Of a stretch of DNA of 64,000 nucleotides, positions 25,185-38,620 are shown one piece after another (within the stretch, counting starts at the first letter, position 1; each line of letters begins with the position of its first letter). The translations under genes were made by a program, and so were the position numbers. The notes beneath the pieces were generated by a model that worked only from the letters and a program-made list of their open reading frames with translations, searched no databases and was not told where the DNA came from. Source of the DNA: Bdellovibrio bacteriovorus (lineage in GTDB: Bacteria; Bdellovibrionota; Bdellovibrionia; Bdellovibrionales; Bdellovibrionaceae); NCBI RefSeq assembly GCF_002208115.1, contig NZ_CP020946.1:1054001-1118000 (forward strand), in the 5' to 3' direction.

Positions 25185-26105
25185 TTATTTCTTCTTCGTC
25201 AGCGGAAATAGATTCAGATCCAGTTGCATAAGATAAGAGTCCGTCGAAGGAGATTTTGACTGCGCAAGGTGCTGGCGTGAAAGTTCGTCAATCCAGTTTC
25301 GCAGTTCGATGAGTTTCATTGCCACCGGCATAAACTGCCCCCGAGGAATAACCACAGGATGGTTATGATAGGTGGACGGACTTTGCGGATTTTCAATAAA
25401 TGTTAAAAAGTTATTAACCGCATCGCGATGAAGCTCGATTCCCTGGTAGGGCGCATCGCCCTTCGTAGTGGAGTGGTCAAATTCGGCCGGAGCCGCCGTC
25501 AGCGGGCTTCCTTCTATGAGCTCTCCGTTGTCATCCCATTGCAGATATTTTTCTTTCTCAATTCTGTCGAGTGCGTTTTGCATCCGCAGAGACGATATTC
25601 CCGGAATTTCAAAGCTTTCTTCGATCTCTTTGACAGAGAGGCGTTTTTTCTTCCAAGTCATCAAACGCAGAGCCCAGACAATGTCTGACCAGAGCACCTG
25701 ATCCATTCCAGCTTCCTTCTGATAGAGCGATGGGTTGGGATCGGTTTTTGATTTTTCCTGAAATAGCTGATCGGATTGATTTTTGGGGGAATGAGCCAAC
25801 GCAAGCCACAACATGTGTTCTTTTTGGGCGTTGTTCATTTTGAAATAGTTCGCAAATTCCAGGGCGCGTGTAACACTGAGATTTTTTCTACCTGAGCTTA
25901 AATCCGAAAGATAGCTTGCCGGCCAATTTAATAAATTGGCGAACACCCGGTAAGAAAACTTAGCATCACGCACTTTGTTTTCGACAAAAAAATCCTTGAA
26001 GTAGTCTTTCGCATCTTTGTATGGCATGGGCGAGACAAATTTTAACTTCTTTTCCACTGCAGGCATCCTTTGCAAACATTTTAGGGGATCAAGGTTCGAA
26101 TTCAA
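25185..26105 (-). CDS. TIGR02147-family regulator-like protein
   Basis: 306 residues. The N-terminus (about 25-110) has the hallmark YKDAKDYFKDFF...FSYRVFANLLNWPASYLSDL and SSGRKNLS of the TIGR02147 paralog family, known mainly from Fibrobacter and Bdellovibrio and thought to hold an HTH-like unit. The middle (about 140-200) forms a winged-helix-like segment with LSVKEIEESFEI. The C-terminal DUF4423-type region ends in a helical unit (PVAMKLIELRNWIDELSRQ). The family is presumed regulatory, targets unknown. A plausible role is control of neighbouring secreted proteins (inference). Confidence 0.8.
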   Translation of the reverse strand: MNSNLDPLKCLQRMPAVEKKLKFVSPMPYKDAKDYFKDFFVENKVRDAKFSYRVFANLLNWPASYLSDLSSGRKNLSVTRALEFANYFKMNNAQKEHMLWLALAHSPKNQSDQLFQEKSKTDPNPSLYQKEAGMDQVLWSDIVWALRLMTWKKKRLSVKEIEESFEIPGISSLRMQNALDRIEKEKYLQWDDNGELIEGSPLTAAPAEFDHSTTKGDAPYQGIELHRDAVNNFLTFIENPQSPSTYHNHPVVIPRGQFMPVAMKLIELRNWIDELSRQHLAQSKSPSTDSYLMQLDLNLFPLTKKK

Positions 26106-26308
26106 GAGTTAAACCGCGAAAGAAGTGTACTCATTTTTAGTACACCAGGTCTAGAAATGTACTCTTGCCGAGTAGAAAGTGACCAGCAAGGTCCGCTGCA
26201 AAAGCTAGTGACAGCCCAACCTGCTTACGCTTCTTTCCGGGGTGGTTTTTGATTTGCAAAAGAAGGTGGCAAATGTGTTCAACTACCAAACAAGAAAGAA
26301 GGTATGAA

Positions 26309-26719
26309 ATGAAAAACGCAGTCGTTCTTATGATCGGTCTCTTGGCGGCAAGTACGGTGATGGCGCAAGGAACAGCTAAGGTTGTGTCGGTAAACTGTCA
26401 GTCTCCTTCAATGATGGCTGGCGGTGTCTCAGCATCCCTAACGGGCACCCTTGAAATCATCGTCAGCCCGACAACGGGTATGACAAAAGTACGTCCCGGC
26501 AGCGAAGTTGTTTTGAGTGTTGGCGGCGAAACTGCGTCAGTTGCCATTGAAGGAGTTTATTTTGTGGCAGGTGCCCGGGAATACATCAACGGGAGTTTGG
26601 ATCAAGACGCGGTTCCCTTTTCAAGTACTCGAATTGATTTTAATGACTCTTCAGAAAGTCAAAGAAGCTACATTCAGCGTTTGAACGGCCAAAAGATTCC
26701 ACTTCATTGTGCGCACTAG
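26309..26719 (+). CDS. Small secreted protein of unknown function
   Basis: 136 residues from ATG at 26309, after AAGAAGGTATGAA, an SD. It begins MKNAVVLMIGLLAASTVMA, a signal peptide cleaved before QGTAKV. Mature part about 117 residues, with cysteines in VNCQSP and at the C-terminal LHCAH, and a beta-sandwich pattern of alternating polar and hydrophobic residues. No family is recognised. It stands divergent to the TIGR02147 gene and is followed by a hairpin at 26735-26767. Confidence 0.7.
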   Translation: MKNAVVLMIGLLAASTVMAQGTAKVVSVNCQSPSMMAGGVSASLTGTLEIIVSPTTGMTKVRPGSEVVLSVGGETASVAIEGVYFVAGAREYINGSLDQDAVPFSSTRIDFNDSSESQRSYIQRLNGQKIPLHCAH

Positions 26720-26730
26720 AATTACCTAGT

Positions 26731-26768
26731 AGGTAGCAGAGCTCGGCTTCCCAGGTTGGGCTCTTGCT
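26731..26768. repeat. Copy of a short structured repeat (other copy at 36007)
   Basis: This segment matches 36007-36043 along its whole length apart from one indel and a few substitutions, including the core CTTCCCAGGTTGGGCTC. It forms a hairpin in which CCCA pairs with TGGG and AGAG with CTCT. It lies between convergent genes and may also act as a terminator. Confidence 0.5.
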
Positions 26769-28262
26769 TTATCTCTTTTTTAGAACCACAAAGACGGCGA
26801 TAGCAACAATGGCAATGACAGCCCCAGCCGATACTAAGACGTTCTGATGGGCCGACGAAAACGCAACCTTTGCCGCCGACACCAAGGTTTCGGCCGAAGC
26901 ACTATCAAGAGCTTTTGCCGCAATCATGGTGTCGCCAATGCTTAAAGTCCCTTGTGCCGGGATGCTGCTCGCAATTTCGGCAGGCAGCTGAATGGCTTTT
27001 CTGTAGCTTTGCGACAGCAATAATCCGAACAGGGTGATCCCCAGTCCCATGCCCAGCTCATATCCTACGGCTTCAATCGAGCCTGCGGCGCCCGCTTTTT
27101 CCGGGGGTGCCGCACTCATGATCGCAATGGATGAAGCAGTAAGGCCAATGGCTAAAAACAGACCCAGCAAGAAAAGTGAAATGATGATCAGCGCATTCAT
27201 CGTGGAAAAATCCGCAGCAGCCAAGCTGAATAAACATCCGGCTGAAACCAGCAGGCTTGTCGTCGCGACGGATCTGACTCCGTACCTGCCGACAAAAAAT
27301 CCGGACACGGGGCCGCCAATGGCGGTTGCCAGCATCAAAGGCAGCATGACAGCGCCGGCTTCAAGCGGTGTTTTTCCAAAAACAAACTGCAGTTCCTGGG
27401 CGATGGTGAATTCAACCCCGGCCATCGCACCGGCGACCAGCAGTGCTAGCACAAGCCCGACGCAGATAGCAGGTTTTTTAAACAGCCCCAGGTCCAGTAA
27501 AGGATTTTTCGAGCGAAGCTGAATCCTGATAAATACGGAAATCGCTGAAAGGCCGATGGCCAGCGATCCGAATTTTTCCATGGGACTGACATCCCCTTTG
27601 AAAAAGGATTTCAGGGCATAGACGCACCCGATAAGTCCGACAACCAGAATAAGGGCCTGATCAATGGCCCACTTGGAAGAACTGGTGGTTTGGGATTTAG
27701 GATAGACGATGTATCCCAGCGGCAGAATCAAAGCAATCAACGGGGCATTGATTAGAAACACCCAGTTCCATGAAGAATGAGTCAGGATATACCCACCGAT
27801 TAAAGGTCCGATAGCGCCGCCGGCAGCCCCCACGGTGGACCAGGCACCCAGCGCCAAGGCCCGTTCTTTGTCATCCTCAAACACCGTGCGAATGATTGAT
27901 AAAATACTGGGCATAATCATAGCCGCACCAAAGGCGGTGGCAGCTCGGGCAACGATCAAAAGATTTGCGGAGGTCACTAGTGAAGCAAAGACCGAAGCGA
28001 TCAGAAATAACAGCAATCCATTCAGCATCAGTTTTCTGGATCCGATTTTGTCAGCCAGGGTGCCCATCGGGATCAGTAATCCTGACATCATCAGGGCGTA
28101 AATATCGATGATCCAAAGAACCTGAGTGCCGGTGGCTTTCAGCGAAGTGGTTAGGGTCGGGATCGCCACGTGTAATGTTGTCATATTAATGACAACAGGC
28201 AGGCTGGCCAAAAGGGCCGCGAAAAGAACTAACCATCTGTTGTGCTTAAGTGTCTGTTTCAT
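26769..28262 (-). CDS. MFS multidrug exporter (DHA2, 14-TM type)
   Basis: About 497 residues from ATG at 28262, with 14 predicted membrane segments. The MFS signature GTLADKIGSRKLML lies between TM2 and TM3, and motif C-like GAAGGAIGPLIGGYI in TM5 marks a drug:H+ antiporter. The overall plan is close to SmvA/QacA-type pumps. An ATG at 28280 would add six residues. Neither start has an SD, but a TTGCCA/TATGTC promoter would begin transcription near 28262, so a leaderless mRNA is possible. The adjacent TetR regulator and palindrome imply drug-inducible repression. Confidence 0.9.
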   Translation of the reverse strand: MKQTLKHNRWLVLFAALLASLPVVINMTTLHVAIPTLTTSLKATGTQVLWIIDIYALMMSGLLIPMGTLADKIGSRKLMLNGLLLFLIASVFASLVTSANLLIVARAATAFGAAMIMPSILSIIRTVFEDDKERALALGAWSTVGAAGGAIGPLIGGYILTHSSWNWVFLINAPLIALILPLGYIVYPKSQTTSSSKWAIDQALILVVGLIGCVYALKSFFKGDVSPMEKFGSLAIGLSAISVFIRIQLRSKNPLLDLGLFKKPAICVGLVLALLVAGAMAGVEFTIAQELQFVFGKTPLEAGAVMLPLMLATAIGGPVSGFFVGRYGVRSVATTSLLVSAGCLFSLAAADFSTMNALIIISLFLLGLFLAIGLTASSIAIMSAAPPEKAGAAGSIEAVGYELGMGLGITLFGLLLSQSYRKAIQLPAEIASSIPAQGTLSIGDTMIAAKALDSASAETLVSAAKVAFSSAHQNVLVSAGAVIAIVAIAVFVVLKKR

Positions 28263-28277
28263 AGAATTGACATAATA

Positions 28278-28293
28278 CATACCGATCGGTATG
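28278..28293. promoter_or_regulatory. TetR-type operator palindrome
   Basis: CATACCGATCGGTATG is a perfect 16-bp palindrome between the divergent MFS and TetR genes. It covers the ATG of the TetR gene and the upstream ATG (28280) of the exporter, and lies inside the putative promoter spacers of both. The CCGATCGG core is common in TetR-family operators. Confidence 0.75.
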
Positions 28294-28785
28294 GCAACCG
28301 CCGGGATTGCCAGTGAGGAAGGGGTTCACGCCATCAGACTGAGCAAGGTTTCTGCCGCGGCCGGGGTGACCAAGGGGGCGTTATTTCATCACTTTGTAAA
28401 TAGGGAAGCGCTGATTGCAGCGATGGCTTCGTATCTGATGGATCATCTGGATGCAGAGATTGATCAGCTTATTGAAAAAGACACGCAAGAATACGTGGTT
28501 TTTACCCGCGCGTATATTCAAGCAACCCTGAATATGGAAAGCGAATTCGGCAAAGCCTTTTCTACTTTACTGCTGGCCGAACCCAGCGTGGTTTCCATCA
28601 GCAGCGATTGGTTTGTTGGAAGGATGAAGAAACACGTGAAGACGGATTCTGATCCAAGTCTTGAGGTCGTCCGTTATGCCGCTGACGGAGCGTGGCTGGC
28701 GGCGGTGACGAACTACAATCCTAAGATGGATTTGGCTAAGGTCAGAAAGCGTCTTATCGCGATGACAGAAGTTAAGGGCGACTGA
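28291..28785 (+). CDS. TetR-family repressor (short N-terminus)
   Basis: 164 residues. The HTH RLSKVSAAAGVTKGALFHHF is typical and is followed by the DNA-contact helix end VNREALIAAM. The first helix found in the family (about 10-15 residues before ATAGIASEEG) is absent from the ATG at 28291, and a stop codon lies five codons upstream in frame, so it is truly short or begins on a non-standard codon. The C-terminal ligand domain (50-164) has no recognisable ligand motif. It should bind the palindrome that overlaps its own start and control the divergent exporter. Confidence 0.8.
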   Translation: MATAGIASEEGVHAIRLSKVSAAAGVTKGALFHHFVNREALIAAMASYLMDHLDAEIDQLIEKDTQEYVVFTRAYIQATLNMESEFGKAFSTLLLAEPSVVSISSDWFVGRMKKHVKTDSDPSLEVVRYAADGAWLAAVTNYNPKMDLAKVRKRLIAMTEVKGD

Positions 28786-28861
28786 GTTCTTGTCGCGTGC
28801 GGAAATCTCGCGCATAGATCATGCGAGCGATGTGATAGTACAGGTCGAAGTGGAATATTGA

Positions 28862-29980
28862 TCATTCGGTATTTGGCAGGAGTAAAGAGTTTAATTTTGC
28901 AGTCTCGTAGCCGTGCGTAAATATCGTATCAAAGGATTCTGGGGTCATTTTAAGTAGAGAGGTCGGAAATGATCTTGCGTATGATACGCTTTTTTCATCT
29001 AGCCACATCTCGCCATTCGGACACAGGTTTTGAAATGATGGGGCACTCGAGATAGTACCGATCTGTAAATACATTCCTAATGACGGATTGTTTTTTATAA
29101 AGTTCACTATACTTCGAACACGAAGTGCTCGTGTTTGTTCGCTCATTATGTCCATCAATCTTTTGAATCTGAAAGGATTTAATGGGTGAGGAATATCTTC
29201 CGTTGCAAACGGTTTGCCTGCGTCAGATACGATCAGAAAGTCGACATTTTCATTGGAAGACTTAATCCTTTGTGTGCCACAATCATAGAGAGGTTCGACC
29301 CCTAGGTTGTCGTAAACTCCTCCATCATAAAGGTGGAGGGTCTTCTGTTGAAGGGTAGTTGGTTTGGCATTGGCTTGAGAGCCCCATTCCGCTTTGCGCC
29401 AAACATACTTATCAGAGGCTATCTTGAGTGGGCCAATTCCTCCGGGAAACGCTGCTGACATGGCCATGGCGTTGGCTATTGGGAAATCGGTCATATCCGC
29501 ATAGCCGATTGAGTAGTCACCTCCGGTACCTTTTTTAAATCTAAATCGTTTTCCATTTTCGGCTGTGGTGCCGTTGATGGACCAGGTTGGTGATGGGGGT
29601 AGATCTCCCAATGTTCCTGTTATCTGAAACAACTCATTGATGGATTCAGCTACTATATTTGCACGATATGTAAGTCTATGCCAATTCAAGGGGCTCAGCG
29701 CTTTTGTTTTTGCTGTCGACTGGAGGCAATTTGATGTCAGGATATTTTTGATTTCGAGGCAGTGATTTTGATATTCGCCGCTACTAGGCCACTTGTAATT
29801 TGAAATGTGAAATAGGAGGCCGATGAAAATGCTTCCACCCGAAACGCTGGATACGTGAGATACATGCTCTAGTTGTTGAGTGTCGGCAAGCCACTTGAGT
29901 ACGCCGGCATGAAATGCTGCGGCTCTCATTCCTCCGCCAGATAAACAAATTCCAATACTTCGATGTGGTGTATTTCTCAT
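28862..29980 (-). CDS. Patatin-like phospholipase (effector-like)
   Basis: 372 residues without a signal peptide. The oxyanion loop SGGGMRA starts at residue 14, nucleophile Ser47 is in VSGGS (the usual first Gly of GxSxG is Ser), and the catalytic Asp219 is in YDGGVYDNLG. All three parts of the patatin Ser-Asp dyad enzyme are intact. Such enzymes cut acyl chains from phospholipids; several are known effectors in antiphage systems (CBASS CapV). It is the second gene of a two-gene operon, 13 bp after an MBL-fold gene. Base composition is clearly more AT-rich than the surrounding chromosome. Confidence 0.88.
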   Translation of the reverse strand: MRNTPHRSIGICLSGGGMRAAAFHAGVLKWLADTQQLEHVSHVSSVSGGSIFIGLLFHISNYKWPSSGEYQNHCLEIKNILTSNCLQSTAKTKALSPLNWHRLTYRANIVAESINELFQITGTLGDLPPSPTWSINGTTAENGKRFRFKKGTGGDYSIGYADMTDFPIANAMAMSAAFPGGIGPLKIASDKYVWRKAEWGSQANAKPTTLQQKTLHLYDGGVYDNLGVEPLYDCGTQRIKSSNENVDFLIVSDAGKPFATEDIPHPLNPFRFKRLMDIMSEQTRALRVRSIVNFIKNNPSLGMYLQIGTISSAPSFQNLCPNGEMWLDEKSVSYARSFPTSLLKMTPESFDTIFTHGYETAKLNSLLLPNTE

Positions 29981-29993
29981 GGGAAAAACATCC

Positions 29994-30818
29994 TTAGATG
30001 CTATATTTTGTACTTATAGGATCTTTCCCGGCCTCGAGCGTGGTCAAAATTGATTGACCGTCACTCCCTGTATTTGTTTGGTACCAAATTTTAGAGTGTT
30101 GGTTAAATAGCTCGACTGCTTCTTTGTGGGGATGGCCATATTGATTGTTTACTCCGGCGCTAACTATAATTTTGTAAGGGGAAACGGCAGACAACAGCTC
30201 TTTCGATGATCCATTTTTTGAACCATGATGAGGAGCTGTCATCATTTGAGAAGCTAAACTATTGCCAAACTCTTTTATAATATTAGCCCATCTGTCGATT
30301 TCGGTATCGCCGGTGACTAAGTAAGACTGCTGAGAGGAATTTTCGACCACTTTACAAACTAGCGAGCAGTTGTTGGAAGAAGATTTATCCTCCGCATGGG
30401 GGGAGAAAATCTCGAAGGTAAACTCCTTTGAAAGTTTCGAGTAAAAACGTGATTTATTGTCATTTAAAAGAATCGGAACACGTTGAATTTTGCTGTTAGT
30501 GTCGTGAGCGTCAATAAGCTTAAAGCACTCGGAAGCATTATCAGTTGCTTTGAAATACTTTGGATACATGATCCAATTTGGAAGATATTTGTGAAGAATT
30601 ATGCTTAAACCCACTGAATTAAAGTGGTCTGCATCAAAGCCAGTAATCATTAATCCAATTAAGGCCTTGTTTTTTAGGATGTCGGCAAGAGCCCCTTTGA
30701 TATTGATAACTTTTTGGTCGGTTCCCATTGGCACATGGGTATCGACTATGAATGCTTCGTTAGTGCCAACTACAACGGTAAAGTTTCCTTGCGCAACATT
30801 TAGAGAATAGACTTTCAT
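29994..30818 (-). CDS. ComEC-like MBL-fold hydrolase paired with a patatin
   Basis: 274 residues, cytoplasmic. The opening MKVYSLNVAQGNFTVV and the later VTGDTEIDRW, TAPHHGSKNG and YGHPHKEAVELF match the soluble ComEC/Rec2-type MBL domain. The first motif reads GFDADH (60-65), where ComEC-like proteins often have HxDxDH, so the first His is Gly; the other metal ligands are kept. The substrate is unknown; related domains cut nucleic acids or nucleotides. It has a good SD (AGGAG) and a TTGACA/TATACT promoter, and leads the operon with the patatin gene. I infer one functional module. Confidence 0.75.
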   Translation of the reverse strand: MKVYSLNVAQGNFTVVVGTNEAFIVDTHVPMGTDQKVINIKGALADILKNKALIGLMITGFDADHFNSVGLSIILHKYLPNWIMYPKYFKATDNASECFKLIDAHDTNSKIQRVPILLNDNKSRFYSKLSKEFTFEIFSPHAEDKSSSNNCSLVCKVVENSSQQSYLVTGDTEIDRWANIIKEFGNSLASQMMTAPHHGSKNGSSKELLSAVSPYKIIVSAGVNNQYGHPHKEAVELFNQHSKIWYQTNTGSDGQSILTTLEAGKDPISTKYSI

Positions 30819-30845
30819 TTTAACTCCTGCAAATTACGGTATGTA

Positions 30846-30872
30846 AGTATACAGCTGTTTGTTTTTTGTCAA
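30846..30872 (-). promoter_or_regulatory. Sigma70-type promoter of the MBL-patatin operon
   Basis: TTGACA at 30872-30867 and TATACT at 30851-30846 on the minus strand, spaced 15 bp (16 if TTTGAC is used). The start of transcription would lie about 20 bp before the ATG at 30818, which has a clear AGGAG. Confidence 0.6.
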
Positions 30873-30945
30873 ACTCCACTGGTGATATCGAATGGTCAGA
30901 ATCAATTGTGTCTCGGGATTGTAATTTGCGAGCCTATTGCTCTCT

Positions 30946-30964
30946 TCGAGTCCCGCTACCCCAA
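30946..30964 (+). repeat. Fragment of a tRNA-Gln-like 3' end (attachment-site remnant)
   Basis: TTCGAGTCCCGCTACCCCA matches the 3' end of tRNA-Gln (36237-36308) at 18 of 19 positions but lies in the opposite orientation. It begins at the T-loop, the usual crossover region of tRNA integrating elements. It stands just upstream of the recombinase-like gene. Confidence 0.6.
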
Positions 30965-30973
30965 CGGTAGATT

Positions 30974-31600
30974 TTGGACGTAGCAAAGCCCGTTTGGGAT
31001 TCGATATATTTTGTTTTAAAGGGAGAAAATGGATGTCCTAAGACATCAATAAGCAATAATTGCCCGTCCCTTGATATTATTGAGTTTTTTCAAAAAATTG
31101 AACCCCGCATTTACGAAATTATCGCGCCGCTGCACGTGGAAGGCATGTCGATAACTGATATTGAGCAGCAAACGGGCTTAAAAAGAACCTCGATCTGGAA
31201 GGCATTGAAGGCTCATGATCAAAGCCTTCCCTCCAAACAGTCAGTTCCATACGCAAGGTGGCGCAAAGGTCATAAAAGGACCGGCGCCAGACCCCCTTAT
31301 GGATTTTGCTTTCTTTAGGGGGAGTTGGTGAGAGACCCCAAAGAGTACCCCACGCTTCTTTTAATCCACAACTTATGGACTCGCGGCAGTGATATTATGT
31401 CTATTTTTTCTGCCCTTAGTGATCGTGGCCTTAAATCCCGAACGGGTAAAGAGTGGAGCTACGGAGTCATTAAATCCATTGGTCAGAGAATTGAGTCGGG
31501 GGCGATAGTTCTTCAGTCGGGGAAGTTAGCGCTCTCCGAGAGCTTCCTAAAAGGAACTTCGTCGGCTTCAAAAGTACTAACAAAAAAGAGAAAGGGATGA
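30974..31600 (+). pseudogene. Recombinase-domain protein broken by an in-frame amber codon
   Basis: The frame gives 114 residues with a small HTH (GMSITDIEQQTGLKRTSIWKAL) up to RPPYGFCFL, then TAG at 31316-31318, then continues in the same frame with GELVRDPKEYPTLLLIHNLW and SALSDRGLKSRTGKEWSYG. This second part fits the recombinase domain (PF07508) of serine recombinases (pattern PYGY...Gxlv.dpeE...i..l...g.s...i...Ln..g..t..Gk.Ws). The stop could be one CAG-to-TAG change. No resolvase catalytic domain is present. The beginning lacks a good ATG (TTG at 30974). Downstream part could also restart at TTG 31325. Confidence 0.65.
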
Positions 31601-31603
31601 ATT

Positions 31604-31953
31604 ATGAACCTCACGAATCTTATTTTTTGGAGTGCCAGTGTCATCACCGGGTTGGCTGGAGTTCACAACATAGATTCCATTCAGCGAGCCATTTGGAAGG
31701 TCCAAGCACGAATCGTCTACGAGTCGCGTACCGAGACATGGGGATCTCCAAAGTTTTTAAGGAATGACCAAGGTCCTCACAAGTTAAGTCAGAGGAGCGG
31801 TCAGGAAAGGAACTGACTTCAAAAGAGCTTTTATTTGTCCATACTTTAGCGGTCATAGACCTAGGCGCGATGTTTCAATTCTCGGATCAGAACCGAAGTT
31901 CGGTTGATATGATTGATGAGGCTTTGGTGATCTTGTTGAAATTCGAGATGTGA
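31604..31953 (+). pseudogene. Possible frameshifted small gene
   Basis: An ATG at 31604, four bases after the recombinase stop and with AAGGGATGAATT as SD, opens a 70-residue frame that stops at 31816. From about 31780 a second frame (+2) runs to TGA at 31951-31953 with coherent coding character (KELTSKELLFVHTLAVIDLG, then FSDQNRSSVDMIDEALVIL) but no start codon of its own. A single frameshift between 31780 and 31810 would join them. No family is recognised. The N-terminal part has a hydrophobic stretch (LIFWSASVITGLAGV). Confidence 0.35.
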
Positions 31954-32001
31954 GCTTCATCTTTCTATATTAAGATTTTTCTATTCGCTAGGAGATTAGT
32001 A

Positions 32002-32274
32002 ATGGCGCTAAAGAAGAATACCCTGGGGCAATTTCTGAAAGAAAAGAGAACTCTTTCCGGACTCTCTCAAGGTGAGGTCTCAAAAAAACTTGGTTATTCG
32101 ACTCCGCAGTTTATTTCAAACTGGGCGCGAGGAGTTTCCTCGTCTCCCATTGATACTCTTAAGAAGATCGGCCAAATTTATCATGTGTCGGCAGACGAAT
32201 TATTTGAACGAGTACTTGAAGGCACAATTGAGAGTGTAAGAGACGATATGGCGAAGAAATTTAAGAAGGGTTAG
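32002..32274 (+). CDS. Small XRE-type HTH regulator, divergent member of the paralog family
   Basis: 90 residues. TLGQFLKEKRTLSGLSQGEV then SKKLGYSTPQFISNWARGVS is the same layout as the three small HTH proteins at 7-10.7 kb but with lower identity, and it has an N-terminal extension (MALKKN) and a longer basic C-terminus. SD TAGGAGATTAGTA precedes the ATG. It stands in the AT-rich island upstream of two membrane-protein genes. A dyad repeated twice between them (32368 and 32499) could be its binding site. Confidence 0.85.
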   Translation: MALKKNTLGQFLKEKRTLSGLSQGEVSKKLGYSTPQFISNWARGVSSSPIDTLKKIGQIYHVSADELFERVLEGTIESVRDDMAKKFKKG

Positions 32275-32367
32275 GGGGGGGCCGCCGAGGGCAGGTAGTC
32301 AATTTTTCTAGAAAAACCTCACCTCAATAGACCGAATCTAAACCATTCGACTGTCTACCCGTGACCC

Positions 32368-32381
32368 TAGTAAAACTACTA
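32368..32381. promoter_or_regulatory. Dyad TAGTA-N4-TACTA, copy 1
   Basis: TAGTA-AAAC-TACTA, extended outward to CCTAGTA/TACTAGG (32366-32383). The same dyad with AAAA spacer recurs at 32499-32512. Both lie in the 270-bp gap between the HTH gene and the membrane protein gene, which holds no other feature I can support. Confidence 0.55.
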
Positions 32382-32498
32382 GGCTTCTCTCCGAATTATA
32401 GCCTGAGTTATCAGTATCAGAAACCTTAAGAGTGAACTCAGATCAAGTGAAGGGCTTTTGTGAACTCTTTACACGCCAATAGCATGCTTCTTGTTGCA

Positions 32499-32512
32499 TA
32501 GTAAAAATACTA
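32499..32512. promoter_or_regulatory. Dyad TAGTA-N4-TACTA, copy 2
   Basis: TAGTA-AAAA-TACTA, 33 bp before the ATG at 32545, where it could block or activate the promoter of the two-gene unit that follows. It repeats the half-sites of the dyad at 32368. Confidence 0.55.
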
Positions 32513-32544
32513 GTAGAAATACTTTTAAGCAATTGGAGGATGTT

Positions 32545-32790
32545 ATGACTGATGAAACAAAAGATGGGTTAAAAGAAGCAGGAAAAGATGCCAGCTCAGC
32601 TACTATCGGGGCGGGAGTTGCTATTACTAGTTTGTCAGTAGCAGGAGTTCCAGGCCTCAGTGCTGCTGGAATCACTTCTGGCTTAGCTGTACTTGGCGGC
32701 TCGATGATCGGTGGAATTTTTGTTGTTGGAGCAATTGGATATGGCGGCTACAAATTATCACGCCTCATCATAAATAAATGTAGCGAATAG
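32545..32790 (+). CDS. Glycine-zipper small membrane protein
   Basis: 81 residues from ATG at 32545, with GGAGG seven bases upstream. After a charged N-terminus (MTDETKDGLKEAGKDASS), residues 19-71 are almost wholly hydrophobic and rich in Gly, Ala, Ser and Val (GLAVLGGSMIGGIFVVGAIG), with GxxxG spacings suited to tight helix packing, and a short basic end. It resembles pore-forming or holin-like small proteins and bacteriocin-type peptides in composition, not in family. No signal peptide. Eleven bases separate it from an HTH protein with a similar hydrophobic hairpin, so the two are likely co-expressed. Confidence 0.65.
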   Translation: MTDETKDGLKEAGKDASSATIGAGVAITSLSVAGVPGLSAAGITSGLAVLGGSMIGGIFVVGAIGYGGYKLSRLIINKCSE

Positions 32791-32801
32791 AGGCTTGCAA
32801 T

Positions 32802-33206
32802 ATGAATGAGTTCACTGGAGGAGATCTTCGCGCATTCAGGACTGAGCTTAGGCTATCAAGGGCGCAGCTCGCGGCACTATTGAATGTAAGTCCCACAACG
32901 GTCGAAAAATGGGAGCAGCGAGAAAGTGAGCCTATACGCTCTAAGTATCATACGCTGCTATCGTCACTGGGTGCAAAGGGCGTCGGTGTAGCTATAGGAG
33001 CTGGGATAGCCGGGGTTGTGGCTGCGCCGGCAGTCCTAGGGTTCGCGGCAGCGTTAGGGGCAACTGCTTTGGCAACTGGATCAGGAGCTTCTTTTTTGAA
33101 AGAGGATTCGGACACTCAATCTCTTAGGAACTTTCTGGTAAAGTTTGGGGGACTATCTGAAGAAGAAAAAAGAACGTTTATTGATGTTCTTCAAAAGATG
33201 ATCTAG
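32802..33206 (+). CDS. XRE HTH fused to a glycine-zipper membrane hairpin
   Basis: 134 residues. Residues 7-55 are a complete HTH of the XRE/MerR-like helix plan (FRTELRLSRAQLAALLNVSP, then TTVEKWEQRESEPIRS). Residues 60-98 form a Gly/Ala-rich hydrophobic hairpin (GVGVAIGAGIAGVVAAPAVL), and the end (105-134) is a helical, acidic tail (LSEEEKRTFIDVLQKM). The hairpin resembles the protein encoded just upstream. A membrane-embedded DNA-binding protein, or an antitoxin that recognises a membrane toxin, are two possible readings. It lies in an island with two possible binding dyads upstream. Confidence 0.65.
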   Translation: MNEFTGGDLRAFRTELRLSRAQLAALLNVSPTTVEKWEQRESEPIRSKYHTLLSSLGAKGVGVAIGAGIAGVVAAPAVLGFAAALGATALATGSGASFLKEDSDTQSLRNFLVKFGGLSEEEKRTFIDVLQKMI

Positions 33207-33240
33207 AGGGTTTGTATACTTTTAATCTCAATCCATCTTT

Positions 33241-33702
33241 TCAAGTTTGATTTCCCAATGAGCCAGATTGAATTATTTTGGAAAGATCATTTACCAGTGA
33301 AGGAAGATTTGCTCTAAGGTCACAAGATAGGTCAATAGTGGCCGCGATGAATGTGGCATCGGACCCATTTACTTGAAACTCCTTTCTTATGTGGACGTTG
33401 GATTTTGGATATAGCAATGCTACAGAAGGCGCCGCAACTCCTGAATGATGAATTTGTCTGTATGCTAGAACTTGGTAGGCATCCTGGTTGCTAATACCAT
33501 AGTGATTTTTAGTGTCGTTGATGATTTTATATTTTGTGTCCAAAATGAATTCTGATCCTGATTTTGATTTAATGTGGATATCGGTAAAGGTGTCGAAGAG
33601 GCTTCGTGGTACCCATTCTCCATTTTCCAATAGGTCGCGCTCTGCTGAGAGATTATGAGAAGATTGCCAGCGGAGAATCTTCGATATGTAAAAATTGACA
33701 AC
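33241..33702 (-). pseudogene. McrC-like fragment (C-terminal domain only)
   Basis: The frame, open from 33702 to TGA at 33241, lacks an ATG and holds only the C-terminal third of McrC, the nuclease subunit of the McrBC modified-DNA restriction enzyme. Matches are FILDTKYK (the PD-(D/E)xK catalytic core, Asp and Lys retained), DAYQVLAYRQIHHS, SVALLYPKSNVHIRK and FQVNG. The remaining N-terminal two thirds and McrB are absent. A TTG at 33630 could allow a 129-residue version. It overlaps head-to-head the start of the gene at 33655. I read it as a decayed gene. Confidence 0.7.
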
Positions 33703-34845
33703 TTAAGTCAGATAGATAGCAAGTTGGCGGACTTATCTAAGTTTCAACTGCTTTCGTTTAGTATGCCTAGTACTCTTGGAAGCGAACCGTGGTTTTTTGT
33801 TCATCCTGATTTGAAGTCTTTGCGAGATAGAATGGTGGAGCGTTTTGGAACGATTGAACATTTTGGCAAAAGCATGTCGATCAATGTTGGACTTCAAGTC
33901 CTTTACAAGAAGTTCTATCTAATCAGAGGTAGAATAGAAAAGAACAAAGTTATAGGTCAGAATTATGCCGGAATTCCGGTGAGCATTGAGAAGTCAATTT
34001 GTCGGCCTCTTGCAATAAATCGGAAGTTCTATCCCTTTAAAGTTATTGAGAAAGATAATTTTGTATTGTTCCCATATCAGCTCTCTTTGATTGATTCAAA
34101 AAAGAAGAGGTCATTGGCAAATTTGAAATGTGACGCAATCAAGTTCACAGCACTTAAAGAAACGTTTCCAAAAACATGGGAATACTTAAAGGAATCTAAA
34201 GAAGAGATTCAAGATAAGGTGGAAACTAAGACTGGAGTAAATTGGTACCACTACACCTATGAAAAAAATCATTGTTTGCAGAGCCTACCAAAGATGTTGA
34301 TTCCATCAACGTGCTTGGATACAACAGCTACCGTTGATGCGCTTGGTGAATTTTATCAAGATAATGTGCGGGTAAATTCTATCATCATTGATGGCGCGGA
34401 TGTTCGCCATTATAAAGCTCTAGCTGCGATCTTCAATTCGAGGATTTTTGACTGCCTTGCAAAAATCACGGCTGAATCTCTTGATAATGGTTATATTCAG
34501 TTGAATAAGCAATTCCTCTTACCAGTTCCTCTTCCCGTACAAAGACTATTGGATGAGGTAGAGGTAACGGATTCACTGGCTTCGGTTTATGATGAAATGC
34601 AAAGTGTCATTAGTGCTTATGTCAATGCTTCGGATAAAGAAACACGTGAAGCCTTAAAGATTGCTTTGAGTAGCGCCGAAGAGAACCTCAACAGTTTGGT
34701 AAACACTCGAGTCTACGAGTTGAACGATCAAGATGTTCAGGAACTGCAGCGATTTGGAAAACGTCTGCCTATCGGCTCTTATGTTGATCAAACTCTACGA
34801 GAAGTGGGAGAACTGGATTTCGTAGAAGAGGCAGAGGCTGTATAA
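33655..34845 (+). CDS. Truncated type IIG/Eco57I-like restriction-modification protein (target-recognition half)
   Basis: 396 residues matching the C-terminal target-recognition region of type IIG enzymes and N6-adenine methylases: GLQVLYKKFYLIRG, PFKVIEKDNFVLFPY, ALKETFPKTWEYLKESKEEI and ALAAIFNSRIFDCLAKI near the end, with NGYIQLNKQFLLPVPLP. The catalytic NPPY and nuclease parts are absent, and the frame begins directly after a stop, so it is a fragment that may or may not be expressed from ATG 33655. No intact methylase is in the window. Strong sign of a lost restriction locus. Confidence 0.7.
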   Translation: MRRLPAENLRYVKIDNLSQIDSKLADLSKFQLLSFSMPSTLGSEPWFFVHPDLKSLRDRMVERFGTIEHFGKSMSINVGLQVLYKKFYLIRGRIEKNKVIGQNYAGIPVSIEKSICRPLAINRKFYPFKVIEKDNFVLFPYQLSLIDSKKKRSLANLKCDAIKFTALKETFPKTWEYLKESKEEIQDKVETKTGVNWYHYTYEKNHCLQSLPKMLIPSTCLDTTATVDALGEFYQDNVRVNSIIIDGADVRHYKALAAIFNSRIFDCLAKITAESLDNGYIQLNKQFLLPVPLPVQRLLDEVEVTDSLASVYDEMQSVISAYVNASDKETREALKIALSSAEENLNSLVNTRVYELNDQDVQELQRFGKRLPIGSYVDQTLREVGELDFVEEAEAV

Positions 34846-34901
34846 TTAACAGGGCGTGGGGGCATTATGAAAATGCTCCCATTCAGAAGAGAAAGAAATT
34901 T

Positions 34902-35375
34902 TTAGAGTATACTATTGGCGGTGGATTCTTTTTTATTACCACCAGACTTCTTAACTAGCTTATTAAACATCAACTCATCAAGACCAAAAAGTTCTTTATA
35001 TTTGTTTGCCCACGCTAAATCGCCATCAATAGCTCTCTTTAGAGTGTTTAAGGTTCGAGCGTGAGGAATGTCTTCCACAATAATGCGTGCAAATCGGGGA
35101 TTCTCCGCCGCGATATCGATAATTTTTTGAATATTTTTTGCTCCACTGACAAACTTTAAAACATCAAAAGCGAGCTGTGGATTCTTTGCGCACTCAAGCA
35201 TATTATCTGCTGTTTGCAGAGCTGGGACAGACGCTAAAAAGCGAATTGCACGATTGTAGTCACTATTGGAAAGAGCATCGTCGAGCATCATTTGAGGTGT
35301 CATAATCTTATTCTCTTTTAAGAACAAATTATTGGGCAATCTGATTGCACGCGATATTGGAAAATTCAAGACCAA
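34902..35375 (-). CDS. Helical cytoplasmic protein of unknown function
   Basis: 157 residues starting at TTG 35375, seven bases after AGGAG; an internal ATG at 35303 has only AAGAGA. It is helix-rich with regular short repeats (AIRFLASVPALQTADNMLEC, then AFDVLKFVSGAKNIQKII) that resemble armadillo- or HEAT-like units. It ends with a basic tail (KKSGGNKKESTANSIL). No signal peptide or membrane segment. It is the last gene of the AT-rich island before the tRNA-Gln region; its function is not recognised. Confidence 0.6.
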   Translation of the reverse strand: MVLNFPISRAIRLPNNLFLKENKIMTPQMMLDDALSNSDYNRAIRFLASVPALQTADNMLECAKNPQLAFDVLKFVSGAKNIQKIIDIAAENPRFARIIVEDIPHARTLNTLKRAIDGDLAWANKYKELFGLDELMFNKLVKKSGGNKKESTANSIL

Positions 35376-36236
35376 AGCCTATCTCCTCGGTACTGACCCG
35401 CAAATTTAAACGGTCATAGCAGTAATCTTCATTAGGTGATTATGCTCAACCAGTCATCTCCGTAGTTGGGGTTAGCTGCGTCAATATGTTGGTTTTTAGC
35501 TAGTTTTTGCAGATATACGAGGTTGGCCTGTAGAAATTACAAAAGGTTGATAGGCGACCTGATGATGATTTAAGGAGCTTTACAAACCAAATACTGAAGT
35601 AGCTTGTAGGCAAACTTACCACCAAAAGCTTCCACTTATTATTGAAATGCTGAAGTCCATTTTGTGCAATACTCAGGCTGCGGGCAGCCTCAGCCCTGGA
35701 GTTTAGAAAGGGCTTTCCGAAGACAACGCCAGCTCTAAAAAGAAGACTTGTGAGAAAGGTCTTAAAGAAGTTGGTGCTCACTCTGAAGGGCTTGGAGACG
35801 TTCTTCTGCGTGGATGAGAGCGGTGTTGAGAAGGCGGCTGGGCGACATGTCCCTGGGGCCTCAGTTAAAATATTGAGATTTGAAAGAAAAAAGGAATCGG
35901 AAAGTCAGATTTTGGGCGCGACAGAGCCGTCAGCGTTGACCCTGCGGGCAGCCGGATCTGATTGATTCCGTCGTTTGAATTTTTGCTTAATGATGGAAAT
36001 GGATGGGGTAGCAGGACTCGGTCTTCCCAGGTTGGGCTCCTGCCCAACCTTCCAGAGCCGGGGCCGTTCGCTCAGCCGGCCATCGTGGCCGTCTGCCCCG
36101 AATCGAATGCTCCTAAGGTCGCATCCGACACGGGTCGCTCTCTCTATTCTCGTCCTGCAACCCCGGGGCAGACGTAGCTGTGCCCTAAGGGGAATTTTGC
36201 TGGCTTATTTTCTGTGATTTTTTAAGAAAAAATGGA
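35376..36236. other. Long gene-poor stretch with tRNA and repeat remnants
   Basis: 861 bp without a gene I can support. Short open frames occur but show no domain. It holds a duplicated tRNA-Gln 3' end (35997-36020) followed by a GC-rich block with hairpins: AGGTTGGG/CCCAACCT (36029-36050) and an 11-bp pair CGTCTGCCCCG/CGGGGCAGACG (36090-36100, 36164-36174). It looks like a decayed mobile-element end. Confidence 0.6.
35997..36020 (-). repeat. Direct repeat of the tRNA-Gln 3' end (putative att site)
   Basis: 24 bases identical to 36230-36253, covering the last 17 bases of tRNA-Gln plus 7 flanking bases, in the same orientation. Such duplications of a tRNA 3' end mark integration. The repeat breaks off at the T-loop of the tRNA, as expected for att core ends. 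Confidence 0.7.
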
Positions 36237-36308
36237 TGGGGTAGCAGGACTCGAACCTGCGAATGACAGAATCAAAATCTGTTGTCTTACCAACTTGACG
36301 ATACCCCA
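36237..36308 (-). tRNA. tRNA-Gln (anticodon TTG)
   Basis: 72 nt, minus strand. The acceptor stem TGGGGTA pairs with TACCCCA. The anticodon loop ATTTTGATT gives TTG, reading CAA/CAG. The T-arm GCAGGTTCGAGTCCTGC is standard. The CCA is not encoded. It lies downstream of spoVG on the same strand, an order common in related bacteria, and its 3' end is duplicated at 35997-36020. Confidence 0.95.
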
Positions 36309-36579
36309 GCAAGATGATGCGTTCGAAGGCCCAAATTACGGATATTGCGGCCCAAAATCAAGAAAAGACTTTATGCGTTGAAAGATAACGCACCATGGGC
36401 CGGAAAAAGAACCAGGAACCTTTTGAATGAAAAAGCCCGTCAGGGATCTGACGGGCTAAGAATTCCAGGGGGTTTACTTGAAGCCGCCGTTGCTGGCTGC
36501 CTCCACATTAGGCAGCCAGGTGTGCGTGAGCAGGGAACTCGACCCCGGCCCCATGGCCCTAGGGTGAATCAAGTCAAAC
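36309..36579 (-). other. Structured region between spoVG and tRNA-Gln
   Basis: 271 bp, no open gene. On the minus strand it has a perfect 10-bp hairpin CTGGCTGCCT/AGGCAGCCAG (36493-36519) and then a terminator at 36430-36457. It may be a structured spoVG 3' UTR or a small RNA; I cannot tell which. Confidence 0.35.
36430..36457 (-). terminator. Terminator downstream of spoVG
   Basis: Perfect AGCCCGTCAG/CTGACGGGCT stem with a GGAT loop, followed on the minus strand by TTTTT. It separates spoVG from tRNA-Gln transcription. Confidence 0.85.
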
Positions 36580-36906
36580 CTAGTAGTCGTCGTTGCCGTA
36601 GTCGCTCCCAGGAGCTTTTTGGCGTTTTAGACTGACCAGGGTTTCGCCCATGGATTTTAGTTCTTTTTCGTAGGCCTCAAATATGAGGTCTTCAATCATC
36701 GCCCGGGTCTCCTGATTCAGGGGGTGGGCGATATCGCGGAACTGACCGTCTTTGCGTTTTTTGCTGGGCATAGCCACGAACAAACCGCTGGTTCCTTGGA
36801 TGACCTTCAGATCCCTCACGACAAAACAGTTGTCCAGAGTGATCGAGACGTAGGCCTTCAGCCGGTCCTCATTGACGGGGAAAACTTTCACCTCGGTGAC
36901 TTTCAT
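36580..36906 (-). CDS. spoVG: SpoVG family RNA/DNA-binding regulator
   Basis: 108 residues from ATG at 36906, after AAAGGGACTGT. The family signature is complete: VTEVKVFPVNEDRLKAYVSI, VVRDLKVI, GLFVAMPSKKRKDGQFRDIA and HPLNQETRAMIEDLI. SpoVG proteins bind nucleic acid and regulate cell-envelope and other genes; in deltaproteobacteria-like genomes the gene lies next to tRNA-Gln. The C-terminal 20 residues (LVSLKRQKAPGSDYGNDDY) form an extra acidic tail. Its upstream palindrome at 37091-37109 may be an operator. Confidence 0.93.
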   Translation of the reverse strand: MKVTEVKVFPVNEDRLKAYVSITLDNCFVVRDLKVIQGTSGLFVAMPSKKRKDGQFRDIAHPLNQETRAMIEDLIFEAYEKELKSMGETLVSLKRQKAPGSDYGNDDY

Positions 36907-37090
36907 ACAGTCCCTTTCTTGTTGCCGTTCTTGTTGCCATAACAGTTGCTCATTCTTAAAAGCCATTTGACCGGCCTTTTTGTCGCAATCTTGGAGCCAA
37001 ACTATGGTCCGTATTTCTTCTCGGTGGGCCCAAGAAAAACTAAAGACCTAGGTCGAGGATTTTTTTATATTTTTACTGAGGTTCCGCGAA

Positions 37091-37109
37091 CTGCCTCAAT
37101 TTGAGGCAG
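37091..37109. promoter_or_regulatory. Perfect palindrome upstream of spoVG
   Basis: CTGCCTCAA-T-TTGAGGCAG. On the minus strand TTGAGG could act as the -35 of a spoVG promoter with a TAAAAAT-like -10 some 18 bp on, so a bound protein would cover the promoter. Position is 185 bp before the spoVG start. Confidence 0.4.
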
Positions 37110-37134
37110 GTGTTTACTTATATAGCGGCAAAAT

Positions 37135-37161
37135 AAAAAAGCCCATCCGAAGATGGGCTTT
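37135..37161 (-). terminator. Terminator after the HtrA protease gene
   Basis: AAGCCCATC/GATGGGCTT with a CGAA tetraloop and a T-run on the minus strand, just beyond the stop at 37199. Confidence 0.85.
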
Positions 37162-37198
37162 GAAGCGCTGCTCTTTATTAAAATTTCTGAGTTTAGAA

Positions 37199-38620
37199 TT
37201 ACTCGATGTTGATGATCTGAATACGGGTGTTGCGGGCAATTCTAAGGGTGTTCTTGCCCTTTTTAAGAGCTTTTAAAACGTCCTTGGCGGTGTCGACGGG
37301 CTGTTTATTAACATCCAAAATCACATCGCCCACGCGCAAACCGCCCTTTGAAGCGTTGGAGTTTCTTTCCGTCTCGATCACCACGGGCTGCTTCATATCG
37401 TCCGGCAGGCCCCATTCCTTGCGAAGCTCGGTGGTTGGATCAATCACCGTGAAGCCCAGATCAAACGGAGCTTTCTGGCCCGCATAGGTTTTAGTCGCCG
37501 CACGAACCGCGCGTTTTTCTTCCACACGTTCTGCCGTCACCACATTCAGGGTCATTTCCTTGTTGTTGCGGATGATCTTGGTTTTAATCGGCTGACCGAT
37601 AGGGGCGTCGGCCACGGCATCCATCAGATCCAAAGAGGTTCTGATTTTCTTGCCGTTAAACTCGGTCACGATGTCGTACATCTTCAAACCGGCTTTCAAA
37701 GCCGGGCTGCCCGGAGACACCTGCGTGATCACGGCCCCGCGAAGCTCGCCCAGTCCCAGGTACTCGGCCGCTTCCGGATCCAAGTCACCCAAAGCCGTAC
37801 CCAGGAAACCTCGGGCAATGCGGCCCTTGGATTCAAGAATTGGCAAGATGGCTTTCACTTCATCAATCGGAATCGCAAAACCGATCCCCTGCGCGCGGGC
37901 ATCAATCGCCGAGTTCACGCCGATCACCTGACCTTTGGTGTTCACCAGCGGACCACCCGAGTTCCCCGGATTGATGCTGGCATCGGTCTGAAGCAATGGA
38001 ATTTTATTGATCTCTGTGATGTCGCGGCCTTTGGAAGAGATAATCCCTTTCGTCATGGAGTGACCGTGACCGAACGGATTCCCGAACGCCGCCACCCATT
38101 CGCCGACTTCAACATCTTTGGACGAGCCCAGCACCGCCACAGGCAGTTTGCCTTTCGGAGTGATCTTGATCAAAGCAATGTCCGTGCGTTCGTCGCTGCC
38201 GACAAGGGTCGCTTCAAACACGTCCGTGGATTTTTCGCTTAATTGAACGTTGATGATGTCGGCGCCGGCGATCACGTGGTTGTTCGTGATGATCAGGCCG
38301 TCTTCACGGATGATAAAGCCTGTGCCCAGACCCATTTGTTGCGGACGCTGTTGTTGTTGAGGTTGCTGCATGCGGAAACCATAAAGCTGTTCCAGCATAT
38401 CCAGCATCGGATCACGCATGCGCGGAGAGTTCTTGGGCATCGCCGTGGTTGAGATATTCACAACCGCCGGGTTGATGGCCTTGGCCAGCTCAACAAACAA
38501 GTTGCCGGGCAGGGCGGCGCTCAGATTCATCTTCGGTGGATCTTTCGGGAGTTCCTTCGCGCCCGTTTGGGCTTGAGCGGTCATTGCGACAGACAGAATA
38601 AGAACCAACAGCGTCTTCAT
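37199..38620 (-). CDS. HtrA/DegP-family periplasmic serine protease
   Basis: 473 residues with a signal peptide (about 1-18). Catalytic triad His115 (TNNHVI), Asp147 (RTDIAL) and Ser221 (GNSGGP). Two PDZ domains follow (about 260-355 and 380-470) and a Gln/Pro-rich stretch precedes the protease domain. It degrades or refolds misfolded envelope proteins. The following gene (82-residue DUF1844 protein) begins 263 bp upstream on the same strand and ends 14 bp before this gene, so they may be one transcript. Start ATG 38620 has AAGGAGAAAAC upstream. Confidence 0.95.
   Translation of the reverse strand: MKTLLVLILSVAMTAQAQTGAKELPKDPPKMNLSAALPGNLFVELAKAINPAVVNISTTAMPKNSPRMRDPMLDMLEQLYGFRMQQPQQQQRPQQMGLGTGFIIREDGLIITNNHVIAGADIINVQLSEKSTDVFEATLVGSDERTDIALIKITPKGKLPVAVLGSSKDVEVGEWVAAFGNPFGHGHSMTKGIISSKGRDITEINKIPLLQTDASINPGNSGGPLVNTKGQVIGVNSAIDARAQGIGFAIPIDEVKAILPILESKGRIARGFLGTALGDLDPEAAEYLGLGELRGAVITQVSPGSPALKAGLKMYDIVTEFNGKKIRTSLDLMDAVADAPIGQPIKTKIIRNNKEMTLNVVTAERVEEKRAVRAATKTYAGQKAPFDLGFTVIDPTTELRKEWGLPDDMKQPVVIETERNSNASKGGLRVGDVILDVNKQPVDTAKDVLKALKKGKNTLRIARNTRIQIINIE

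Follow-up and report, generated by a model that had tools for sequence, protein, structure and literature searches.

A small membrane protein with a Bunzi-type module and a predicted XRE regulator form a two-gene operon on a putative mobile island of Bdellovibrio bacteriovorus

Background

The locus considered here lies in a 64,000-nucleotide stretch of DNA (the window) from the predatory bacterium Bdellovibrio bacteriovorus and consists of two small genes, for the membrane protein GZ81 and the HTH protein HTH-GZ. It can be compared with the Bunzi defence system, with toxin-antitoxin systems, and with RodZ. TerB is common to Shango and Bunzi (PMC10952713), and a 2026 review lists the mechanism of Bunzi as unknown (PMC12926258). 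Shared with Bunzi are a defence-related island setting and a membrane segment, since GZ81 aligns with residues 297-373 of BnzA. However, GZ81 has neither the TerB-like N-terminus nor the coil tail, its matches do not extend over the full length of BnzA (~545 aa), and its partner is an XRE HTH protein instead of BnzB.

The type II toxin-antitoxin systems, such as HigBA and MqsRA, likewise have a small first gene, an XRE HTH second, a short gap, upstream operator dyads, and an HTH of the MqsA/HipB/NadS type. Two small adjacent co-directional genes are present here too, and the place of a DNA-binding antitoxin with upstream palindromes is taken by a predicted XRE HTH and dyads unique in the genome. 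In contrast to these systems, GZ81 is a membrane protein without a known toxin fold, and HTH-GZ bears a hydrophobic stretch. As regards type I toxin-antitoxin systems, an Rfam scan of positions 26000-38000 returned tRNA-Gln alone and no known antitoxin RNA family. RodZ, an XRE-transmembrane protein, resembles HTH-GZ in that a hydrophobic stretch follows a cytoplasmic XRE HTH. Compared by description, HTH-GZ differs from it in having specific operator-like dyads and a small partner, and in having no periplasmic domain.

The two-gene operon

The features of the pair are as follows.

32545..32790, forward strand: GZ81, a Gly/Ala-rich small membrane protein of 81 aa with the GLSAAGITSGLA module (ORF call)
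32802..33206, forward strand: HTH-GZ, 134 aa, with an XRE HTH (residues 4-60), a Gly/Ala-rich hydrophobic stretch (about 57-95) and an acidic helical tail (Pfam, hydropathy)
32536..32540, forward strand: GGAGG, ribosome-binding site of GZ81 (direct sequence reading)

The genes for GZ81 and HTH-GZ, both small (81 and 134 aa) and co-directional, are separated by 11 bp; the ORF calls thus confirm the pair, its coordinates and its gap as given in a first-pass annotation of this DNA. Plausible ribosome-binding sites precede both genes, GGAGG at 4 nt ahead of 32545 and GAGG at 8 nt ahead of 32802. The two genes are a real operon coding for a small membrane protein and an HTH protein. In codon usage the entire island is atypical and scores like non-coding frames, so that this measure does not discriminate for the two ORFs. 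A sigma-70 scan ahead of GZ81 gave no promoter-like match above chance.

GZ81 had been described as almost wholly hydrophobic, which was not confirmed: residues 1-18 are charged, residues 19-71 form a Gly/Ala-rich hydrophobic body, and the last 10 residues are cationic. Nor does the term glycine zipper fit, as GxxxG is not enriched in either protein, with 2 motifs observed against 2.9 expected from composition in GZ81 and 1 against 1.9 in HTH-GZ. AlphaFold models of both proteins are poor, with a pLDDT of about 55.

The GZ module and its relatives

No model in Pfam, NCBIfam, or PHROGs matches GZ81, in line with the earlier statement that no named family has this design. That statement holds in part, since the PADLOC BnzA profile covers GZ81 partly, with an E-value of 4.3e-7 over residues 297-373 of its 544 positions. 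In an alignment of 11 rows (A2), the core of the module is an invariant G-x(2)-GxSxAGIxSG followed by a conserved G a few residues further. The match of GZ81 to BnzA takes in the LSAAGITSGLA core. Judged by these alignments, the unnamed module GLSAAGITSGLA is common to GZ81, the membrane segment of BnzA, TerB fusions, solo phage proteins, and one XRE fusion.

Relatives were gathered by scans of viral contigs and, in the case of L031, from genomes of the phylum. The genuine BnzA/BnzB pairs (L010 and L011) bear the GZ module, both L011 proteins having E-values below 1e-200. Shorter pairs of a GZ-coil protein and a BnzB-like protein (L012-L020) were also found, some of them on IncHI2 plasmids, as were TerB-GZ fusions (L056, L059) and a duplicated GZ (L049). 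Solo GZ proteins occur in phages (L076, L108) and in the phylum (L031). The last of these is 47% identical to GZ81 (E 1.9e-12), and L108 begins with MTEKEK, much like GZ81. L108 gives nothing against the BnzA profile at E 0.01 or better, so a BnzA match is not universal for GZ proteins. None of these three solo proteins has an HTH neighbour, which suggests that GZ can work without a regulator.

GZ was also sought in two further phyla, with about 400 genomes each: one yielded three matches, in two genomes and with Bunzi-like content, and the other none. Taken together, the relatives show wide use of the GZ module in membrane roles, some of them at least in defence. Two matches were discarded: an 'ankyrin' protein on an Alicyclobacillus plasmid, a chance match without the module, and L027, a spurious six-frame match with internal stops across unrelated genes.

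Membership of the locus in Bunzi was rejected, because the membrane segment alone matches BnzA and BnzB was not found. The BnzB profile, which scores 8e-208 on the BnzB of L011, has no match in the B. bacteriovorus genome itself, or in the controls, and none among the ten neighbouring proteins scanned.

Three of the loci collected deserve mention in their own right. On IncHI2 plasmids of Enterobacter and Klebsiella, a short Bunzi-like pair annotated as hypothetical (L020:5866-7756) consists of a 165-aa GZ-coil protein and a 462-aa BnzB-like protein (E 3.2e-52). L056:6197-10783 encodes a TerB-GZ fusion of 229 aa, accompanied by small partner genes and an adjoining 957-aa ATPase-like gene, possibly a separate defence operon. 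At L076:5649-5903, a solo 84-aa GZ protein is encoded directly 5' of a tail-fibre gene, and the phage contig carries an ADP-ribosyltransferase-like gene as well. This GZ protein is a candidate for a holin-type or exclusion-type function.

The HTH-GZ protein and a phage fusion

The XRE HTH assigned earlier to the second protein is confirmed by Pfam, with HTH_31 at 3.5e-7 and HTH_3 at 2.6e-6, both passing the curated cut-off. This HTH matches MqsA, DicA, NadS, and HipB-type models and is nearest to the HTHs of toxin-antitoxin antitoxins and phage repressors. The closest relative of solved structure is the P22 C2 repressor (PDB, E 0.003), and the best one in the phylum is L094, an MqsA-type antitoxin-like protein encoded downstream of a 133-aa ORF. 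Beyond the HTH, HTH-GZ has no homologue in plasmids, phages, viral contigs, the genome collection, or 369 genomes of the phylum. A possible relative with 35% identity (L005) was rejected, as the HTH alone matches and the tail differs.

The rest of the protein had been described as a hairpin comparable to that of GZ81, with a helical tail, and the HTH protein was thought to share its partner's membrane element. A hydrophobic stretch is indeed present at about residues 57-95 (Kyte-Doolittle mean over 19 residues up to 2.18), and the C-terminus is helical in the predicted structure, at low confidence. The comparison of the hydrophobic regions of HTH-GZ and GZ81, however, gave a BLASTP E-value of 0.45 and an hhalign probability of 1.5%, so that the idea of the same hairpin in both proteins was rejected and a shared membrane element is not supported. 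The two stretches seem to resemble each other in composition only and are not demonstrably homologous. HTH-GZ as such has a weak match to BnzA (E 0.0083).

An independent link between an XRE HTH and the GZ module comes from one phage gene. On contig IMGVR_UViG_3300033145_003250 (L013), a protein of 214 aa has an XRE HTH followed by a GZ81-like domain. Its GZ half is 47% identical to GZ81 over 87 residues (E 9.9e-10), and 44% identical in an alignment that starts at Met1 of GZ81. The gene lies between the portal and terminase genes on the strand opposite to the phage head genes, a moron-like position, and a perfect 17-bp dyad is found about 30 bp upstream. Thus, the fusion has an XRE HTH, a GZ81-like domain, and an upstream dyad, like the locus in B. 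bacteriovorus, but in one fused gene. Its HTH half of ~100 aa is not close to the HTH of HTH-GZ (BLASTP E 0.017). L013 is independent evidence, if from a single case, that an XRE HTH and the GZ module function together.

Homologous pairs of GZ81 and an HTH protein, by which the first-pass annotation had asked to be judged, were searched for in 369 genomes of the phylum and in plasmids, phages, and viral contigs. None was found, which goes largely against that annotation.

Operator-like dyads and their possible readers

The leader of GZ81 and the region in front of it contain the following features, the dyads and the palindrome being given without a strand.

32368..32381: dyad O1, TAGTA-AAAC-TACTA, extending to CCTAGTA...TACTAGG with 7-bp arms (exact match)
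32499..32512: dyad O2, TAGTA-AAAA-TACTA (exact match)
32511..32524: dyad O3, TAGTAGAAATACTT, with one mismatch, 12 bp from O2 and abutting it
32002..32274, forward strand: XRE repressor of 90 aa, RstR/ICEBs1-regulator-like, the alternative candidate reader of the dyads (HTH_3 1e-10; RstR 1.3e-7; ICEBs1 regulator structure 7t8i, E 9.8e-6)
31891..31905: palindrome AACCGAAGTTCGGTT upstream of the 32002 repressor, possibly a separate operator for it (30 of 100 shuffles also match at <=2 mismatches)

The two TAGTA-N4-TACTA dyads reported earlier in front of the pair are indeed there, and a third one with one mismatch (32511) had been missed. Exact TAGTA-N4-TACTA occurs twice in the entire genome, a single contig of 3.77 Mb, as O1 and O2, compared with 10 occurrences of the reversed control pattern. 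O1 and O2 are 131 bp apart, both inside the 270-bp leader of GZ81. With ~10 sites expected per genome, the chance of finding two in one such leader is, by a rough estimate, of the order of 1e-7. As predicted sites, O1-O3 are well supported as operators, and the operon is very probably controlled through these operator-like dyads of its own.

A 5-bp arm with an N4 spacer is the operator type of XRE dimers of the P22-c2 class. The geometry of the dyads would fit a P22-c2-type dimer of HTH-GZ, since P22 C2 is the closest solved relative of its HTH. The L013 fusion with its own dyad also supports self-regulation by HTH-GZ, which we infer to be the reader of the dyads.

The reader may instead be 32002, acting as the master repressor of the island. 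GZ81 and HTH-GZ would then be cargo released upon induction of the element, with HTH-GZ acting elsewhere or serving as a membrane-tethered sensor. The 32002 protein has a full XRE fold and is related to immunity repressors of mobile elements; its gene is directly upstream and co-directional, and a two-mismatch dyad at 31997 overlaps its start codon. However, 32002 has a separate palindrome upstream of it, all the good dyads are in front of GZ81, and the phage protein in which an HTH is fused to a GZ domain, with a dyad of its own, favours HTH-GZ. We consider control by 32002 possible, if rather unlikely.

A proposed membrane effector with a dedicated repressor

Our preferred reading, to which we assign a probability of roughly 40%, is that GZ81 is a membrane effector and HTH-GZ its dedicated repressor, autoregulated in the manner of a toxin-first toxin-antitoxin or abortive-infection system. 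GZ81 would be a stand-alone Bunzi-type module that forms a helical bundle in the inner membrane and, when abundant or released, depolarises the membrane or forms leaks. A c2-like XRE dimer of HTH-GZ would bind the three dyads before GZ81 and repress the operon. Through its hydrophobic stretch, HTH-GZ may touch GZ81 or the membrane, which would make repression and neutralisation dependent on the level of GZ81 or the state of the membrane. The logic would be that of a toxin-first toxin-antitoxin or abortive-infection unit, executed at the membrane. Reader of the dyads, topology, interaction between GZ81 and the HTH protein, toxicity, and a role in defence are all conjectural parts of this scheme. 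The word 'effector' is borrowed, Bunzi itself being a system of unknown mechanism.

The toxin-first layout is supported by the gene order, with the membrane gene first and the HTH gene second, and by the HTH matches of the MqsA/NadS/HipB type. The island, with its McrC, type IIG and recombinase fragments and a patatin/MBL pair, is also in keeping with this reading, as is the presence of the module in genuine BnzA/BnzB pairs. Against it speak the absence of the pair from every other genome searched, the solo GZ proteins without an HTH neighbour, the doubtful homology of the two hydrophobic stretches, the lack of a sigma-70-like promoter above chance, the poor structure models, and L108, a GZ protein that the BnzA profile does not match. 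The proposal made earlier, of a regulator that recognises the small protein in a toxin-antitoxin-like or abortive-infection-like unit, thus survives in part: the operon with its dyads, the HTH-module link in L013, the kinship of GZ81 with part of the defence protein BnzA, and the toxin-first gene order speak for it, and the shared membrane element has fallen away. It appears unlikely that, in such a toxin-antitoxin or abortive-infection unit, the repressor uses a membrane segment of its own to sense or neutralise a Bunzi-type effector through direct contact within the bilayer and couples this to DNA binding. If true, a defence operon would here be autoregulated by a transmembrane-coupled repressor, a rare design. 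With a likely repressor beside it, the minimal 81-aa GZ81 should offer an easy handle on the membrane effect of the module and hence on how Bunzi-like systems act.

The pair may also be a phage-derived moron. GZ81 would block superinfection or alter the envelope, in the manner of lysogenic conversion or of a holin, and the HTH protein would keep its expression low, with no relation to toxin-antitoxin systems. The solo GZ genes of phages, L108 and L076 (the latter adjoining a tail-fibre gene, with a terminase gene on the contig), are consistent with this, as is the fusion lying on the opposite strand between portal and terminase genes. Yet a scan of ten proteins around the pair gave no phage structural gene, and BnzA shows that dedicated defence systems use the module too. 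This origin seems to us quite improbable.

Island setting

The locus lies on a low-GC, apparently mobile and partly defence-related island, which is bounded by the following features.

26732..26767, forward strand: 37-bp imperfect direct repeat that marks the bounds of the island, left copy (89% identical to 36007-36043)
36007..36043, forward strand: right copy of the repeat, adjoining tRNA-Gln (the same repeat follows tRNA-Gln in G006)
36233..36308, reverse strand: tRNA-Gln (TTG), the insertion point of the island (3' end duplicated at 35997-36020)

The repeats are 9.3 kb apart, the bounds of the island being 26732-36308, and from 28.9 to 35.9 kb the GC content drops from about 50% to 38-45%. 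G006, a genome of the same genus, has the same tRNA-Gln and repeat, and no more than ~2 kb after them comes sequence that sits near 20.3 kb in the window. As the same repeat has different contents there, the tRNA-Gln site is an insertion hotspot.

That GZ81 and HTH-GZ are the decaying rest of what was once a larger system, Bunzi-like or of the TerB-GZ kind, with no present function, seems quite improbable. McrC, the type IIG enzyme, and the recombinase nearby are all broken, BnzB is not found in the genome, and no orthologous pair turned up anywhere searched, but neither ORF is interrupted, each has a good ribosome-binding site, the three operator-like dyads are preserved, and the start of GZ81 resembles that of solo relatives (MTEKEK in L108).

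Several other parts of the island can be noted. At 33241-34845, McrC (reverse strand) and a type IIG restriction enzyme (forward strand) are present as C-terminal fragments, divergent and 24 bp apart, which represent remnants of two restriction systems; ~130 aa of McrC and ~400 aa of the type IIG enzyme are retained, and the recombinase is in pieces. Between the recombinase fragments and 32002, at 31604-31816 (forward strand), there is a 70-aa ORF with a hydrophobic N-terminus that belongs to no PADLOC family. At 28862-30818 (reverse strand), a patatin-like phospholipase (372 aa) and a ComEC-type MBL-fold hydrolase (274 aa) are encoded with 13 bp between them, possibly as a two-gene defence pair; the MBL protein matches the LmuA, RTasMBL, and Avs1a profiles.
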